A DNA stretch of 43,389 nucleotides, taken from positions 1 to 43,389 of the forward strand of contig JAJZDN010000032.1 in the NCBI GenBank assembly GCA_021805985.1. Direction: 5' to 3'. Source of the stretch: Planctomycetota bacterium (GTDB lineage: Bacteria > Planctomycetota > Phycisphaerae > WQYP01). Below are positions 1,785 to 43,389 of the stretch, piece by piece. The notes beneath the pieces are model-generated. The model was given only the letters and a program-made list of their open reading frames with translations, made no database searches and had not been told where the DNA came from. The translations under genes were made by a program, and so were the position numbers. How positions within the stretch are numbered: position 1 is the stretch's first letter; every line of letters begins with the position of its first letter.

Positions 1785-3458
1785 TCAATGCTTGGGTTTA
1801 TGCGATGAGTCGATGATTAATATTTGGATGATCATGGCAATGCCTCCGGCGGCGGCCAGCAGGAATAAAATAATGGCCAGTCCCGGGTACCCGAAGAGAC
1901 GAAAAGATGTCTTGATGCGCATCATCAAGGCAGCGCCAACAATAAGCGCCGCCAAAATCAACCCTTGGCTGATCCGGTTGGCCACCTTTTGAAATCCGGC
2001 CATCAGCTTATCTTCGTCAATGGCGTGTATCGTGAATTCCAGATCATTGTTGCCGATGGTGTCGAGAATACGATTTACCCGCATGGGGAGTTTCTCGGCG
2101 AACTCCTTAGCCTCCATGAGGGCGCTATAAACATTTCCGCTGGTCGCACCGTGCAATAGCCGACGTTGCAGTATGTGCGTGGCATTGCGGCGCAGGGATT
2201 CGTTGGGATTAAATTCGGGATCGAGTGTAGAACCCAGGCGATCAAGGTTCAACAGTGTCTTGCCCAGCATGGTAAATTCCTGCGGCATTCTGATGCCGCA
2301 GTCGGCGGTGATGGTGCCCAATTCCAGCACCACTCGCCCGACATTAATACCCTTCAGCGTGCTGTCTTTGTTGAGGGCAATTAAATCATTCACTGCGCGG
2401 TTTAACTTCTTTTCATTAAAATTCTCTTTTTTCTCCCCGACATCAATCAACCGGGTTACGACCGCGTCGGTTCGGCTCTCGCTGACGGCCAGAAGCAGGT
2501 GCAGAAGCTTGTCCTGAAAATGGGGTGAAATATGTGCCACCATTCCCAGATCCAGCAACGCGATACACGAGTCCTTTGTGAGCAGGACATTTCCCGGATG
2601 CGGGTCGGCGTGGTAGAAGCCATCGACCAGTATCTGTTGGAGATAGGCCTTAAAAAGTTCCTCGGCCAGCATGGCCCCGTCCAATTCGAGCCGCACCACC
2701 GGGCTTAATGCGGTGATTTTTTGGCCGGCGATGTATTGCATGGTCAGTACGCGCGAAGTGGAAAGGTCTGCAATGGGTGCCGGCACGCGCAAATGTTTGA
2801 ATTCTTTCAGATTGGCGCCCAGGGTTACGAGATTGCGTGCCTCCTGGCGGTAATCCAATTCGCTTAGAATCGTTCGTTCAAATTCTTCAACAATGGGGCC
2901 GAATTCGTAGCGCTTTCCCAGTTCGGTGTGCTGATCCAGAAAATGTGCAACCTCACGCAGAGATTCCATGTCGGCGGTGACGAGTTCACGAATGTCCGGC
3001 CGCTGGATTTTAATGACCACCTCGCGTCCGTCATGCAAGGTCGCACGATGGACTTGACCCAGAGAGGCGGCCGCCAGGGGACGCGGCTCAATGTCCGCAA
3101 ATATTTTTGGCAGTCGAGCACCCATTTCTTCCGCCAAAATAGCCCGGGCCTCCTCGAAGGGAAACGGCTCAACCTTGTCTTGGAGGCGGCTGAGCGCCTG
3201 CAGATAGGCGGGCGGCATGATATCGGGCCGCGTTGAAAGCAGCTGGCCGAGTTTGATGAAAGTAGGCCCCATTTTCTCAAGATCATCGGCAAGTTGTGTG
3301 GCATCGGGTGAGTCGCCGGCGTCGGCAGGCTGGTCCTCGGGGTCCAGCATGGCCGATACGCCAGCGGCTTTAGCCCAGTCCGAGCGGCCATATTTGTAGA
3401 AGAGCCACACGATATCCTTGTAGCGGCTGAAATGCTTCGGTTTAAGGGAAAGGCTCAT
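1785..3458 (-). CDS. ubiB: UbiB/ABC1-family atypical protein kinase-like protein
   Basis: A 557-aa membrane protein of the ABC1/ADCK/UbiB family, needed in other bacteria for ubiquinone biosynthesis or lipid-quinone homeostasis. Visible family signatures are the KxGQ motif (KLGQ, residues 69-72), the Ala-rich loop replacing the Gly-loop (AAASLGQVH, 129-137), the invariant lysine in VIKIQRP (K150), the catalytic-type HADPHPGN (283-290) and the metal-binding DLG (303-305). Two hydrophobic helices close the protein (about 503-525 and 530-552), as in UbiB. The ATG has an excellent AAGGAG five bases upstream, fixing the start. It stands alone, with no quinone-synthesis genes beside it; the assignment to UbiB rather than another ABC1 member rests on the C-terminal anchor. 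Confidence 0.88.
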   Translation of the reverse strand: MSLSLKPKHFSRYKDIVWLFYKYGRSDWAKAAGVSAMLDPEDQPADAGDSPDATQLADDLEKMGPTFIKLGQLLSTRPDIMPPAYLQALSRLQDKVEPFPFEEARAILAEEMGARLPKIFADIEPRPLAAASLGQVHRATLHDGREVVIKIQRPDIRELVTADMESLREVAHFLDQHTELGKRYEFGPIVEEFERTILSELDYRQEARNLVTLGANLKEFKHLRVPAPIADLSTSRVLTMQYIAGQKITALSPVVRLELDGAMLAEELFKAYLQQILVDGFYHADPHPGNVLLTKDSCIALLDLGMVAHISPHFQDKLLHLLLAVSESRTDAVVTRLIDVGEKKENFNEKKLNRAVNDLIALNKDSTLKGINVGRVVLELGTITADCGIRMPQEFTMLGKTLLNLDRLGSTLDPEFNPNESLRRNATHILQRRLLHGATSGNVYSALMEAKEFAEKLPMRVNRILDTIGNNDLEFTIHAIDEDKLMAGFQKVANRISQGLILAALIVGAALMMRIKTSFRLFGYPGLAIILFLLAAAGGIAMIIQILIIDSSHKPKH

Positions 3459-3670
3459 AACAACTCCTTTTTCATTTGTGCATCGGATTGCCCCCTGCGT
3501 CCTGTGGTTCCGCCGTTACAGCGGCTGAGTCCCCTGAATTATAGCCCTGTAGTCCGCCCACAATGTTAAATCTATGCGAATGATCGCAAGGGGCGGGATT
3601 GGGTATAAACCGCAGGATTTTGGCGGTGGGCACGGCGTCTGAGGAAAATTTGACGCCGTCGCGGGCCGAC
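3459..3670. other. Intergenic leader and degenerate start of the 190-bp array
   Basis: Positions about 3620-3670 resemble the linker part of the 190-bp units (ending gacgccgtcgcgggccg, also seen just before the last unit at about 5049-5064). The array therefore begins with a partial unit. Nothing else recognised. Confidence 0.45.
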
Positions 3671-3860
3671 GCCAGCGGTGGATGAATCCACCGGCTAACA
3701 TGTATGCGTGCCGCAACGCATTGTTATTCTGATTTTCTTTTGGCGTATGTTAGCCGGCACATTTGATGTGCCGGGGGCGGCGCGGTGGGCACGATGAATG
3801 GGAAACCGATGCGGCGGCGTTGATGTGATTCGTGAGGGTGTGGCGTTGACGCGGGCCGGT
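3671..3860. repeat. 190-bp palindromic (REP/BIME-like) unit 1
   Basis: Starts gccagcggtgg. It holds a hairpin GGTGGA-TGAA-TCCACC (3677-3692), an 11-bp inverted pair CCGGCTAACAT (3691-3701) / ATGTTAGCCGG (3747-3757), and a second hairpin with arms CCGGCACA (3754-3761) and TGTGCCGG (3767-3774), then a ~85-bp linker. Confidence 0.85.
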
Positions 3861-4050
3861 GCCAGCGGTGGATGAATCCACCGGCTAACATGTATGCGTG
3901 CCGCCACGCATTGTTATTCTGATTTTCTTTTGGCGTATGTTAGGCGGCACATTTGATGTGCCGGGGGCGGCGCGGTGGGCGCGATGAATGGGAAACCGAT
4001 GCGGCGGCGTTGATGTGATTCGTGAGGATGTGGCGTTGATGCGGGCCGGT
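3861..4050. repeat. 190-bp palindromic unit 2
   Basis: Nearly identical to unit 1 and starts exactly 190 bp after it. It carries the same three inverted-repeat elements in the same orientation; the copy of the 3747-3757 arm reads ttaggcgg instead of ttagccgg. Confidence 0.85.
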
Positions 4051-4160
4051 GCCAGCGGTGGATGAATCCACCGGCTAACATATACGTTTGCGGCAACGCG
4101 TTGTTATTCTGATTTTCTTTCGGCGGATGTTGGCCGGCACATTTGATGTGCCGGGGGCGG
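4051..4160. repeat. 190-bp palindromic unit 3 (hairpin half only)
   Basis: Starts exactly 190 bp after unit 2 and contains the hairpin half up to ccgggggcgg. The usual linker half is missing; instead the stop codon of the RAYT gene follows 12 bp later. The transposase gene therefore sits inside the array. Confidence 0.85.
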
Positions 4161-4171
4161 CTTTGCCGCCG

Positions 4172-4798
4172 TTACGGCGGTGGCGCCACAAAATTCCATT
4201 TTTGGGGCGGCAGGCCGGCCTTGATGGGATTGGCTTGGACATAGGCAATGGCCCGCGGCAATTCAAATCGGTTTAGATATCCGCACCATTTGCCTTCGCC
4301 CCATATCGATGCCTGGGCCTTGCCGTCTTGCGCTTTCGGGCACGGGGAGATTCCTTCCTCATTGAGGCGACGGGCCGCCTGGGCTTTGAAGTGACCAATG
4401 GTTATGCCGAGAGTTCTGGATGGACAGCGCAGCACAAGATGAACATGGTCCGGCATGATTGCGCAGGCGTAAATATGGTAATTGGCTTCATGGCAAGCCA
4501 TCGCGAATCCGCGGGCGACCGCCCTGGCTTGGATGCCGGATAACGTTACCGGCGGGAATTTCAGTGCTGTCTTTACCGCAACGCGTAACATGTGATTATG
4601 CCGCGCTGCCGCCACAGATCGTAAATGTCTTGCGCCGGTGGCCGGTCCGCCGAGGTCGTATAAAGATTTTGCAGCGACGTACCGTGACCATGATCCGCGC
4701 GGATCATTGGGCAGCCAGAACCCATACATGCACATCACCAGATGCCACGCGATAATGGGTTCCTTGTCAGGGCGTGAGACATTTGTTCGCGTTGCCAT
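4172..4798 (-). CDS. REP-associated tyrosine transposase (RAYT, Y1_Tnp/IS200-like)
   Basis: A 208-aa single-domain HUH/Y1 transposase. The metal-binding HVH triad sits at residues 118-120 in the context IMPDHVHLVL, and the probable nucleophilic tyrosine is Y186 in AIAYVQANPIKAGL, matching the YxxxNP helix of the family. The N-terminal WHLVMCMYGFWLPNDPRGSW is typical of RAYTs. The reading frame continues upstream to 4906, but those codons lie in the flanking repeat, so the ATG at 4798 is chosen. It is flanked on both sides by direct copies of a two-hairpin 190-bp unit, the arrangement known for RAYTs that mobilise or maintain REP/BIME elements. It appears intact: both key residues are present and there is no frameshift. 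Confidence 0.9.
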   Translation of the reverse strand: MATRTNVSRPDKEPIIAWHLVMCMYGFWLPNDPRGSWSRYVAAKSLYDLGGPATGARHLRSVAAARHNHMLRVAVKTALKFPPVTLSGIQARAVARGFAMACHEANYHIYACAIMPDHVHLVLRCPSRTLGITIGHFKAQAARRLNEEGISPCPKAQDGKAQASIWGEGKWCGYLNRFELPRAIAYVQANPIKAGLPPQKWNFVAPPP

Positions 4799-4875
4799 AA
4801 TGCGGGGAATTTTACATGGTTTATGGGGGTTTGCCAGATGCCGTCGCGGTTGCCGACCCGGTTTTGCGGGCTGCG
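4799..4875. other. Spacer between the RAYT start and unit 4
   Basis: A short stretch upstream of the RAYT ATG. It presumably carries its promoter, but no clear -35/-10 pair was found. Confidence 0.4.
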
Positions 4876-5065
4876 GCCAGCGGTGGATGAATCCACCGGC
4901 TAACATATACGCATATCACAACGTATCGTTATTCCGATTTATTTTGGCGCATGTTAGCCGGCACATTTAATGTGCCGGGGTCGTGCGATGGCCGCACCAC
5001 GAACGGGAAACCGATGCCACGGCGCTGACGTGGTTCAGGAAGACGTGACGCCGTCGCGGGCCGCG
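4876..5065. repeat. 190-bp palindromic unit 4
   Basis: A full-length unit in the same orientation as units 1-3, more diverged (taacatatacgcatatcacaacg in the middle), with both hairpins intact. Confidence 0.82.
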
Positions 5066-5142
5066 GCCAGCGGTGGATGAATCCACCGGTTAACATATAC
5101 GTAGATCACAGTGTGGCGTTATTTTACTTTTGTTTGGGTTCG
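5066..5142. repeat. 190-bp palindromic unit 5, truncated
   Basis: Begins exactly 190 bp after unit 4 with the first hairpin (GGTGGATGAATCCACC) but loses similarity after about 75 bp, where the 3' end of the aldo/keto reductase gene begins. Confidence 0.75.
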
Positions 5143-6129
5143 TTATTTTCCCAGGCGTTCCATCATGGGGGCGGGGTAGCGCAGGCCGGCGGTGGCACCT
5201 TTTGGGGCGGCGGCGTTGAGGCGGGTGACATCGTCGGGGGCCAGAATCACATCTTGGGAGGCGAGATTTTCATGGAGATATTTGCTGCGGCGCGTGCCAG
5301 GGATGGGGATTACGTCGGTGCCGCGGGAAAGTACCCAGGCTAAGGCCAGTTGGCTGGGGGTGCATTGTTTTTCTTTGGCGAGTTCCTGAACTTTTTTGAC
5401 AAGTTCCAGATTTTTTTGAAAGTTTTCAATTTGAAACCGGGGATGGTTTCGGCGATTGTCATTGGCGGCTAAATCTTCGGGCTTTTTTATCTGACCAGTT
5501 AAAAATCCACGCCCCAGCGGACTATACGCCACGAAGGCGATCCCCAAATCCCGGCAAACCTGCAATACACCATCTTCAGGGTCGCGTGTCCAAAGGGAGT
5601 ACTCGCTCTGCAGGGCTGATATTTTATGAACTTTCGCGGCCCGGCGAATTGTTTCGCCGCCCGCTTCGGACAAACCCAGATATTTTACCTTCCCCGCCTG
5701 GACCAATTCGGCCATGGCACCTACTGTATCTTCAATGGCTGTGGAAGTATCCACGCGGTGCTGGTAGTACAAATCAATATGATCTATACCCAGGCGAAGC
5801 AGGCTGGCATCACAAGCCTTCTTAACATATTCCGGCGTGCCGCATACGCCCAGGAATTCCCCTTTAGGGCCGCGCACATTACCGAACTTGGTGGCGAGGA
5901 ACACTTTATCTCTGCGGTCTTTTATGGCCTTGCCGACGAGTGTTTCATTATGCCCTACGCCATACATATCCGCGGTATCCAGAAAGTTGCCCCCGGCAGC
6001 GAGATATTCATGAATGACCGCGACGGATTGAGCATCATCGGCGGGGCCGTAAAATTCACTCATTCCCATACAGCCCAAGCCGATAGCTGAAATGTGCGGG
6101 CCATTTTTTCCTAAAGATCGCATGTGCAT
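5143..6129 (-). CDS. Aldo/keto reductase (AKR13-like)
   Basis: A 328-aa NADP-dependent oxidoreductase of the aldo/keto reductase TIM-barrel superfamily. The family core is visible: [12 protein letters not shown] near the N-terminus, DTADMYG with the catalytic Asp and Tyr, ATKFG with the catalytic Lys, YYQHRVD with the catalytic His, the strand [29 protein letters not shown], and the cofactor-binding [12 protein letters not shown]. The ATG at 6129 is preceded by AAGGAA six bases upstream; the longer frame up to 6252 has no support. Physiological substrate unknown. It is similar throughout to the second reductase at 30965-31963, so the two are paralogues. Its stop codon abuts the truncated fifth palindromic unit. 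Confidence 0.93.

Positions 6130-42922: not shown

Positions 42923-43389
<467 letters not shown>

Follow-up and report, generated by a model that had tools for sequence, protein, structure and literature searches.

A probable REPtron in the Phycisphaerae: a RAYT gene within a tandem array of TTAG-tagged REPINs

The repeat array at the 5' end of the window, which is the whole stretch of 43,389 nucleotides analyzed here, is very probably a REPtron, the name used for a RAYT gene flanked by REPs and for clusters of REPs adjacent to a RAYT gene (PMC6006769). More specifically, we favor the interpretation that the locus consists of one vertically inherited RAYT (TnpA-REP) gene with its cognate REPINs, which carry TTAG-type tags, on both sides. 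This reading is based on the inverted and tagged hairpins in the array, the matches of the protein to a RAYT model and to the structure 4er8, the orthologous loci in related species, the TTAGC feet observed throughout the class, the dispersed REPINs and the published precedents for such an arrangement. Counting against it are the low number of dispersed copies compared with classical REPs (more than 100), the TTAG tag in place of GT[AG]G and a match to the NCBIfam model that falls below the cut-off.

Structure of the Array

The array is located between a gene for a UbiB-like kinase (minus strand, 1785–3458) and a gene for an aldo-keto reductase (minus strand, stop at 5143), and contains the following features.

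3642–3670, no strand: outer flank of unit 1, a remnant of the same spacer (match over 3642–3675 at 85%)
3671–3781, plus strand: unit 1, complete REPIN (covariance model 131.7 bits); REP-a with hairpin 3676–3693 on the minus strand and TTAG tag 3695–3698; REP-b with TTAG tag 3750–3753 and hairpin 3754–3774 on the plus strand
3782–3860, no strand: spacer 1, 79 bp, belonging to the 190-bp repeat
3861–3971, plus strand: unit 2, complete REPIN (97% identity with unit 1 across 190 bp)
3972–4050, no strand: spacer 2
4051–4161, plus strand: unit 3, complete REPIN located 3' of the RAYT gene; the REP-b tag is TTGG
4172–4798, minus strand: RAYT-type HUH/Y1 gene, 208 aa (matches to PF01797, NF047646 and PDB profiles including 4er8)
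4876–4985, plus strand: unit 4, complete REPIN located 5' of the RAYT gene, with an orthologous unit in the congeneric genome G007
4986–5065, no strand: spacer between units 4 and 5 (87% identity with the G007 spacer), similar to the degraded 3' end of a DNA-methylase-like gene
5066–5100, minus strand: unit 5, half unit with the REP-a hairpin alone (5071–5088) and the tag TTAA; the matching half unit in G007 is also single

The unit starts (3671, 3861, 4051, 4876 and 5066) and the exact steps of 190, 190, 825 and 190 bp between them, which had been described in an earlier note on this DNA, were confirmed with Tandem Repeats Finder (period 190, 94% matches and zero indels across 3660–4161) and by unit alignments. 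Each 190-bp period consists of a REPIN of 111 bp, that is two inverted REPs, and a spacer of 79 bp. Four of the five units are complete, with a length of about 111 bp, two inverted hairpins and a TTAG-type tag before each hairpin; the homology of unit 5 ends at about 5100 and only its first hairpin has been kept. Unit 2 shows 90% identity to unit 3 across 111 bp and 79% identity to unit 4 across 188 bp. Our results also support the inference in the note of a RAYT-type gene, of two-hairpin units of the REP/BIME type and of a tandem array that includes the gene. However, the description of the gene as embedded in one unit is inaccurate, since the gene lies in an interval of 714 bp (4162–4875) that separates unit 3 from unit 4 and takes the place of a 79-bp spacer. 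The suggestion that the 825-bp step corresponds to one unit plus about 635 bp of the gene is numerically close, in that the difference between 825 and 190 is 635 and the coding sequence is 627 bp, but this is partly a coincidence.

The two REPs of a unit have the foot TGTTAGCCGG in common and differ in their stems, with REP-a on the minus strand reading TGTTAG-CCGGTGGATTCATCCACCG and REP-b on the plus strand reading TGTTAG-CCGGCACATTTGATGTGCCGG, separated by about 45 bp. Because REP-a and REP-b are mutually inverted, their outer arms can also pair. Two inverted tagged REPs per unit is the design of a REPIN. It was previously stated that all units have the same hairpins in the same orientation; this applies to the units, which are co-oriented, but not to the hairpins inside a unit, which are inverted with different stems, nor to unit 5 with its one hairpin. 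When folded as single-stranded DNA, units 1 and 4 obtained z-scores of −4.3 and −3.3, and 0 and 1 of 200 shuffles, respectively, folded equally well; unit 5 folded no better than the shuffles (z −0.6). At a maximum of one mismatch, the foot was found 12 times in the window, as compared to an expected 2.6, and nine of these 12 are inside the array. The tag in the array is TTAG with the exception of TTGG and TTAA in two REPs, and no GTAG or GTGG foot, the GT[AG]G signature of the GTAG superfamily, was present in the array. An Rfam scan of the window gave no match at the array.

We also considered the possibility that the hairpins serve mainly as transcription terminators or stabilizers of mRNA 3' ends between the UbiB-like, RAYT and reductase genes, given that they are strong, intergenic and placed downstream of both the reductase stop codon and the RAYT gene. 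We find this unlikely as their main function, because it leaves unexplained why the TTAG tag is conserved, why the hairpins are paired and inverted and why each RAYT lineage has its own specific stems. REPs can, however, have terminator or stabilizer roles secondarily.

The RAYT Gene and Its Protein

The RAYT gene is an open reading frame on the minus strand that starts with the ATG at 4798 and ends with the stop at 4172. The encoded protein contains the HUH motif PDHVHLV and the motif AYVQANP, which holds the catalytic tyrosine plus NP (Y---NP), and has a long N-terminal extension with the motif YGFWLPNDPRGSWS. It was matched by the Pfam domain Y1_Tnp (PF01797, E 4.1e-6), by an IS200 model and by the NCBIfam model for REP-associated tyrosine transposases (NF047646, E 9.8e-15), the latter with 54.7 bits and thus under the curated cut-off of 80. 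Furthermore, a profile of 12 homologs matched solved Y1 transposases as well as the E. coli TnpA-REP (4er8), with E-values of 8.5e-4 for the whole chain and 0.096 for the best stretch. Judged by its sequence, this is an HUH protein with a single tyrosine (Y1) that is related to TnpA-REP. An AlphaFold model from three sequences had a pLDDT of 39, too low to be informative. By analogy with the E. coli TnpA-REP, either REP would, as a tagged single-stranded hairpin, be a substrate that the protein binds and cuts.

The PF01797 domain, the match to the IS200 model and the hairpins on both sides of the gene could alternatively be indicative of an autonomous insertion sequence of the IS200/IS605 type with subterminal hairpins. 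Members of this group are autonomously mobile, multi-copy elements with a class 1 transposase that has the motif Y---Q, whereas the gene studied here occurs once per genome, is syntenic in three species and has its tyrosine in the motif Y---NP, as in the class 2 TnpA-REP proteins (PMC6006769). The inverted hairpin pairs moreover form units that also occur without the gene, and we regard an insertion sequence as very unlikely. The RAYT gene is the sole close copy in the genome, with a second homolog at 29% identity.

Orthologous Loci and the History of the Array

Orthologs of the RAYT protein were identified in two congeneric species, G007 (91% identity) and G006 (82% identity), where the genes again neighbor the same aldo-keto reductase gene and have tagged hairpins to their left and right, partly degraded in G006. 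In two other congeneric genomes, G002 and G004, the reductase is present (79% and 78%) with neither a RAYT gene nor TTAG hairpins adjoining it. A RAYT locus that is common to three species but missing from two indicates that the REPtron marks a sub-clade at this site. Tandem repeats assemble poorly and the genome is a draft of 197 contigs, which might raise the suspicion that the array is an assembly artefact of a metagenome-assembled contig; we consider this extremely unlikely because the units differ from each other and because the orthologous contigs of the two other species show the gene between REPIN units.

Units 3 and 4 flank the gene, so that inverted REP hairpins are found on both sides of it. 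On the reductase side, G007 has a full unit in addition to a half unit, the two being 189 bp apart. It has one unit only on the other side, which implies that units 1 and 2, specific to the window genome and counted there from a single assembly, were gained here or else lost in G007. The G007 locus is about 86% identical to the one in the window, and the divergence of 3% between units 1 and 2, as compared to about 14% between the species, argues for a recent duplication of these units. The locus also serves as a dated example of REPIN array growth beside a RAYT gene. A second partial RAYT-like open reading frame, with 42% identity to residues 101–208 and in the opposite orientation, was observed just past the RAYT array in G007 (contig C23, 2896–3213).

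Our model for the growth of the locus is tandem duplication of the 111-bp REPIN together with 79 bp of flanking DNA, which could have been mediated by RAYT catalysis or by ordinary recombination or slippage. It may even be that the array expanded solely by homologous recombination or replication slippage between the direct 190-bp repeats, with the RAYT protein uninvolved and the array as neutral baggage. The chances of this are in our opinion evenly balanced. The duplicated unit takes in spacer DNA and the duplication is local and direct, as slippage or unequal crossing-over predicts, but exact-period hairpin arrays beside other RAYT homologs of the class suggest, although they do not prove, a process linked to the RAYT protein. 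These arrays consist of 8.5 copies of 43 bp (L034, 2121–2487), 2.5 copies of 77 bp (L045, 1147–1337) and 6.9 copies of 32 bp (L038, 2107–2328), and the adjoining RAYT homologs belong to other families of the class. Growth by slippage or recombination is compatible with a REPtron and bears only on the mode of array growth.

Origin of the Spacer

Similarity to the G006 sequence outside the REPIN was observed for two parts of the locus, the unit 4-5 spacer and the outer flank of unit 1, with local alignment scores of 42 and 32 as compared to shuffle means of 17 and 16, scores that 0 of 500 shuffles reached in each case. This G006 flank includes a stretch of 34 codons that can still be recognized as the C-terminal end of a DNA-methylase-like protein (IYGLTEQEFAHMLSTFPLVPQEAKDAALAEFRKI) and that is 76% identical to the tail of the intact gene nearby. 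Likewise, the solitary REPIN on contig C132 of G007 adjoins a methylase-like tail of the same kind. Spacers 1 and 2 match the unit 4-5 spacer at 75–76%, and their similarity to the methylase-like tail was below significance on their own. In the likeliest scenario, a REPIN would have inserted immediately downstream of a methylase-type gene, and the DNA flanking the REPIN would then have been carried along during the formation of the array.

Two other origins of the spacer were rejected. A deletion derivative of the RAYT gene finds no support in comparisons of the RAYT 5' leader with homologs of the spacer flank, which were at chance level save for one marginal case (8 of 500). For an independent dispersed repeat, one weak match was obtained beyond the array and G007 (contig C73 of the window genome, 73%, E 3.7e-4).

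Copies Outside the Array

Pattern, BLAST and covariance searches of the 4.68-Mb draft genome were used to count copies outside the array, and recovered one full REPIN (G000:C130:7195) and three solo REP-b elements (contigs C73, C27 and C81), which corresponds to a low copy number. With up to three mismatches, REP-a had six and REP-b seven matches in the 4.68 Mb, the majority of them in the array. The abundance of more than 100 genomic copies that characterizes the GTAG superfamily was not reached in this genome. Cognate REPs and REPINs are thus dispersed at low number, with one dispersed REPIN in the window genome and two in G007. The question raised in the earlier note of whether the genome holds further copies can be answered by a weak yes, and its idea of a source locus, although possible, gains little support from these few elements. 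A clean empty site was sought for the dispersed REPIN on contig C27 of G007 and none was obtained; the intergenic gap measures 157 bp in G007 as compared to 45 bp in the window genome, a difference of 112 bp or about one REPIN, and since the residual sequences are unalignable the comparison fits gain and loss of one REPIN alike.

In six of the eight congeneric genomes, REP-b had a copy number of 7 to 22, as compared to 0 for the control. Its tagged form is present 12 to 22 times in G003, G005 and G006, in some cases with the common upstream context ccgggcgacctcatccgtaat, and G003 and G005 carry it although they have no close RAYT ortholog. Yet another element, GAGCCGGTGGGTTTATCCCACCGGGAATGTTAGCCGGCACATTTAATGTGCCGG, of about 62 bp with two hairpins in the same direction, the second of which is REP-b, recurs in G007 (L118, L120, L121 and L122) and is possibly a separate family of REP dimers.

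Variation of the Tag Across the Class

A survey of 30 loci with RAYT homologs from the class, in which perfect stems of at least 7 bp were required, identified TTAGC-footed hairpins at 18 loci, with 51 of the 57 matches situated within 400 bp of the gene. The controls near the gene, which were the reversed pentamer, the reverse complement, GTAGG and GTGGG, gave 0 matches. The stems vary by lineage yet remain palindromic; as the scan demands perfect stems, it is the foot and not the palindromes that provides independent evidence. GTAG-C feet were found beside only three of the 30 homologs (L030, L031 and L036), which fall on two distinct branches of the protein tree, and GAAG-C feet at two sister loci (L035 and L042). 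The final AG of the tag is kept across these feet, which would fit the published role of A3G4 in the selection of the CT cut site (PMC8266576).

One hypothesis, to which we assign slightly less than an even chance, is that a single clade of RAYT proteins in the Phycisphaerae has switched its guide tetranucleotide several times, mostly using TTAG, with GTAG on two branches and GAAG on another, while always keeping the AG and changing the stems with each lineage. The label clustering in the tree was not significant beyond modest levels and nine loci have no assigned foot, and several tag switches should therefore be seen as a lead and not as a demonstration. If true, the switches would constitute a natural series for decoding how RAYT proteins recognize the tag and select where to cut. 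Whereas E. coli tolerates no alteration of GTAG, other RAYTs are more flexible (PMC8266576), and a clade in which TTAG, GTAG and apparently GAAG all occur as tags may hence offer matched pairs of protein and tag for studies of tag recognition.

Relation to Known REPtrons

The suggestion in the earlier note that the arrangement is unusual is not supported, since tandem REPINs with flanking DNA and REP clusters adjacent to RAYT genes have been published (PMC3116915; PMC2817692; PMC6006769). In P. fluorescens SBW25, REPINs are tandemly repeated with flanking DNA and REPIN clusters are located beside RAYT genes; the tandem arrays have steps of 112 + 72 bp (period 184 bp), and the largest cluster contains four REPINs and one REP (PMC3116915). 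BIMEs surround a third of the rayt genes examined, and REPs can be concentrated near their own rayt gene (PMC2817692). Together with the exact-period arrays across the class, these published clusters indicate that our locus is a member, in a new lineage, of a known arrangement. It shares with the SBW25 clusters the direct repeats of REPIN and flanking DNA and the proximity to the RAYT gene (PMC3116915), and differs in having the gene inside the array, a spacer that resembles a gene tail and a host from the Phycisphaerae.

The REPtron of E. coli MG1655, with three REPINs, likewise has one HUH/Y1 gene, syntenic and low-copy, with inverted pairs of REPs around it and a tag tetranucleotide directly 5' of the hairpin. 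In contrast to E. coli, the tag here is TTAG instead of GTAG, the stems are short and perfect without the E. coli bulge, dispersed copies are few and the RAYT protein has the long N-terminal extension. The superfamily of GTAG-tagged REPs (PMC3733652), which has been reported from the PVC superphylum, also combines a tetranucleotide tag with a hairpin and forms tail-to-tail dimers, but our locus departs from it in its TTAG tag and low abundance. Atypical REPs with non-canonical feet are also known from the TnpA-Y1 proteins of class 3 and subclass 2.6 (PMC6006769). Class 3 occurs mainly in Planctomycetes and Acidobacteria, and has a Y-Q type motif and a CnGA foot (PMC6006769), as opposed to Y---NP and TTAG here.

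The locus is a variant of the REPtron because it lacks the GT[AG]G tag. Its unusual part is the TTAG tag, in a class where REPtrons have been little described; neither TTAG-tagged REPs nor this protein motif were described in the full-text literature that we searched. Our findings would extend the REPtrons to a RAYT lineage of the Phycisphaerae with a TTAG tag.

Elsewhere in the window, Tandem Repeats Finder reported 2.2 copies of a 20-bp repeat at 5381–5424 within the aldo-keto reductase gene, which probably arose by chance, and the 3' end of a 16S rRNA gene is situated on the minus strand at 43283–43389, where it is cut by the end of the contig.
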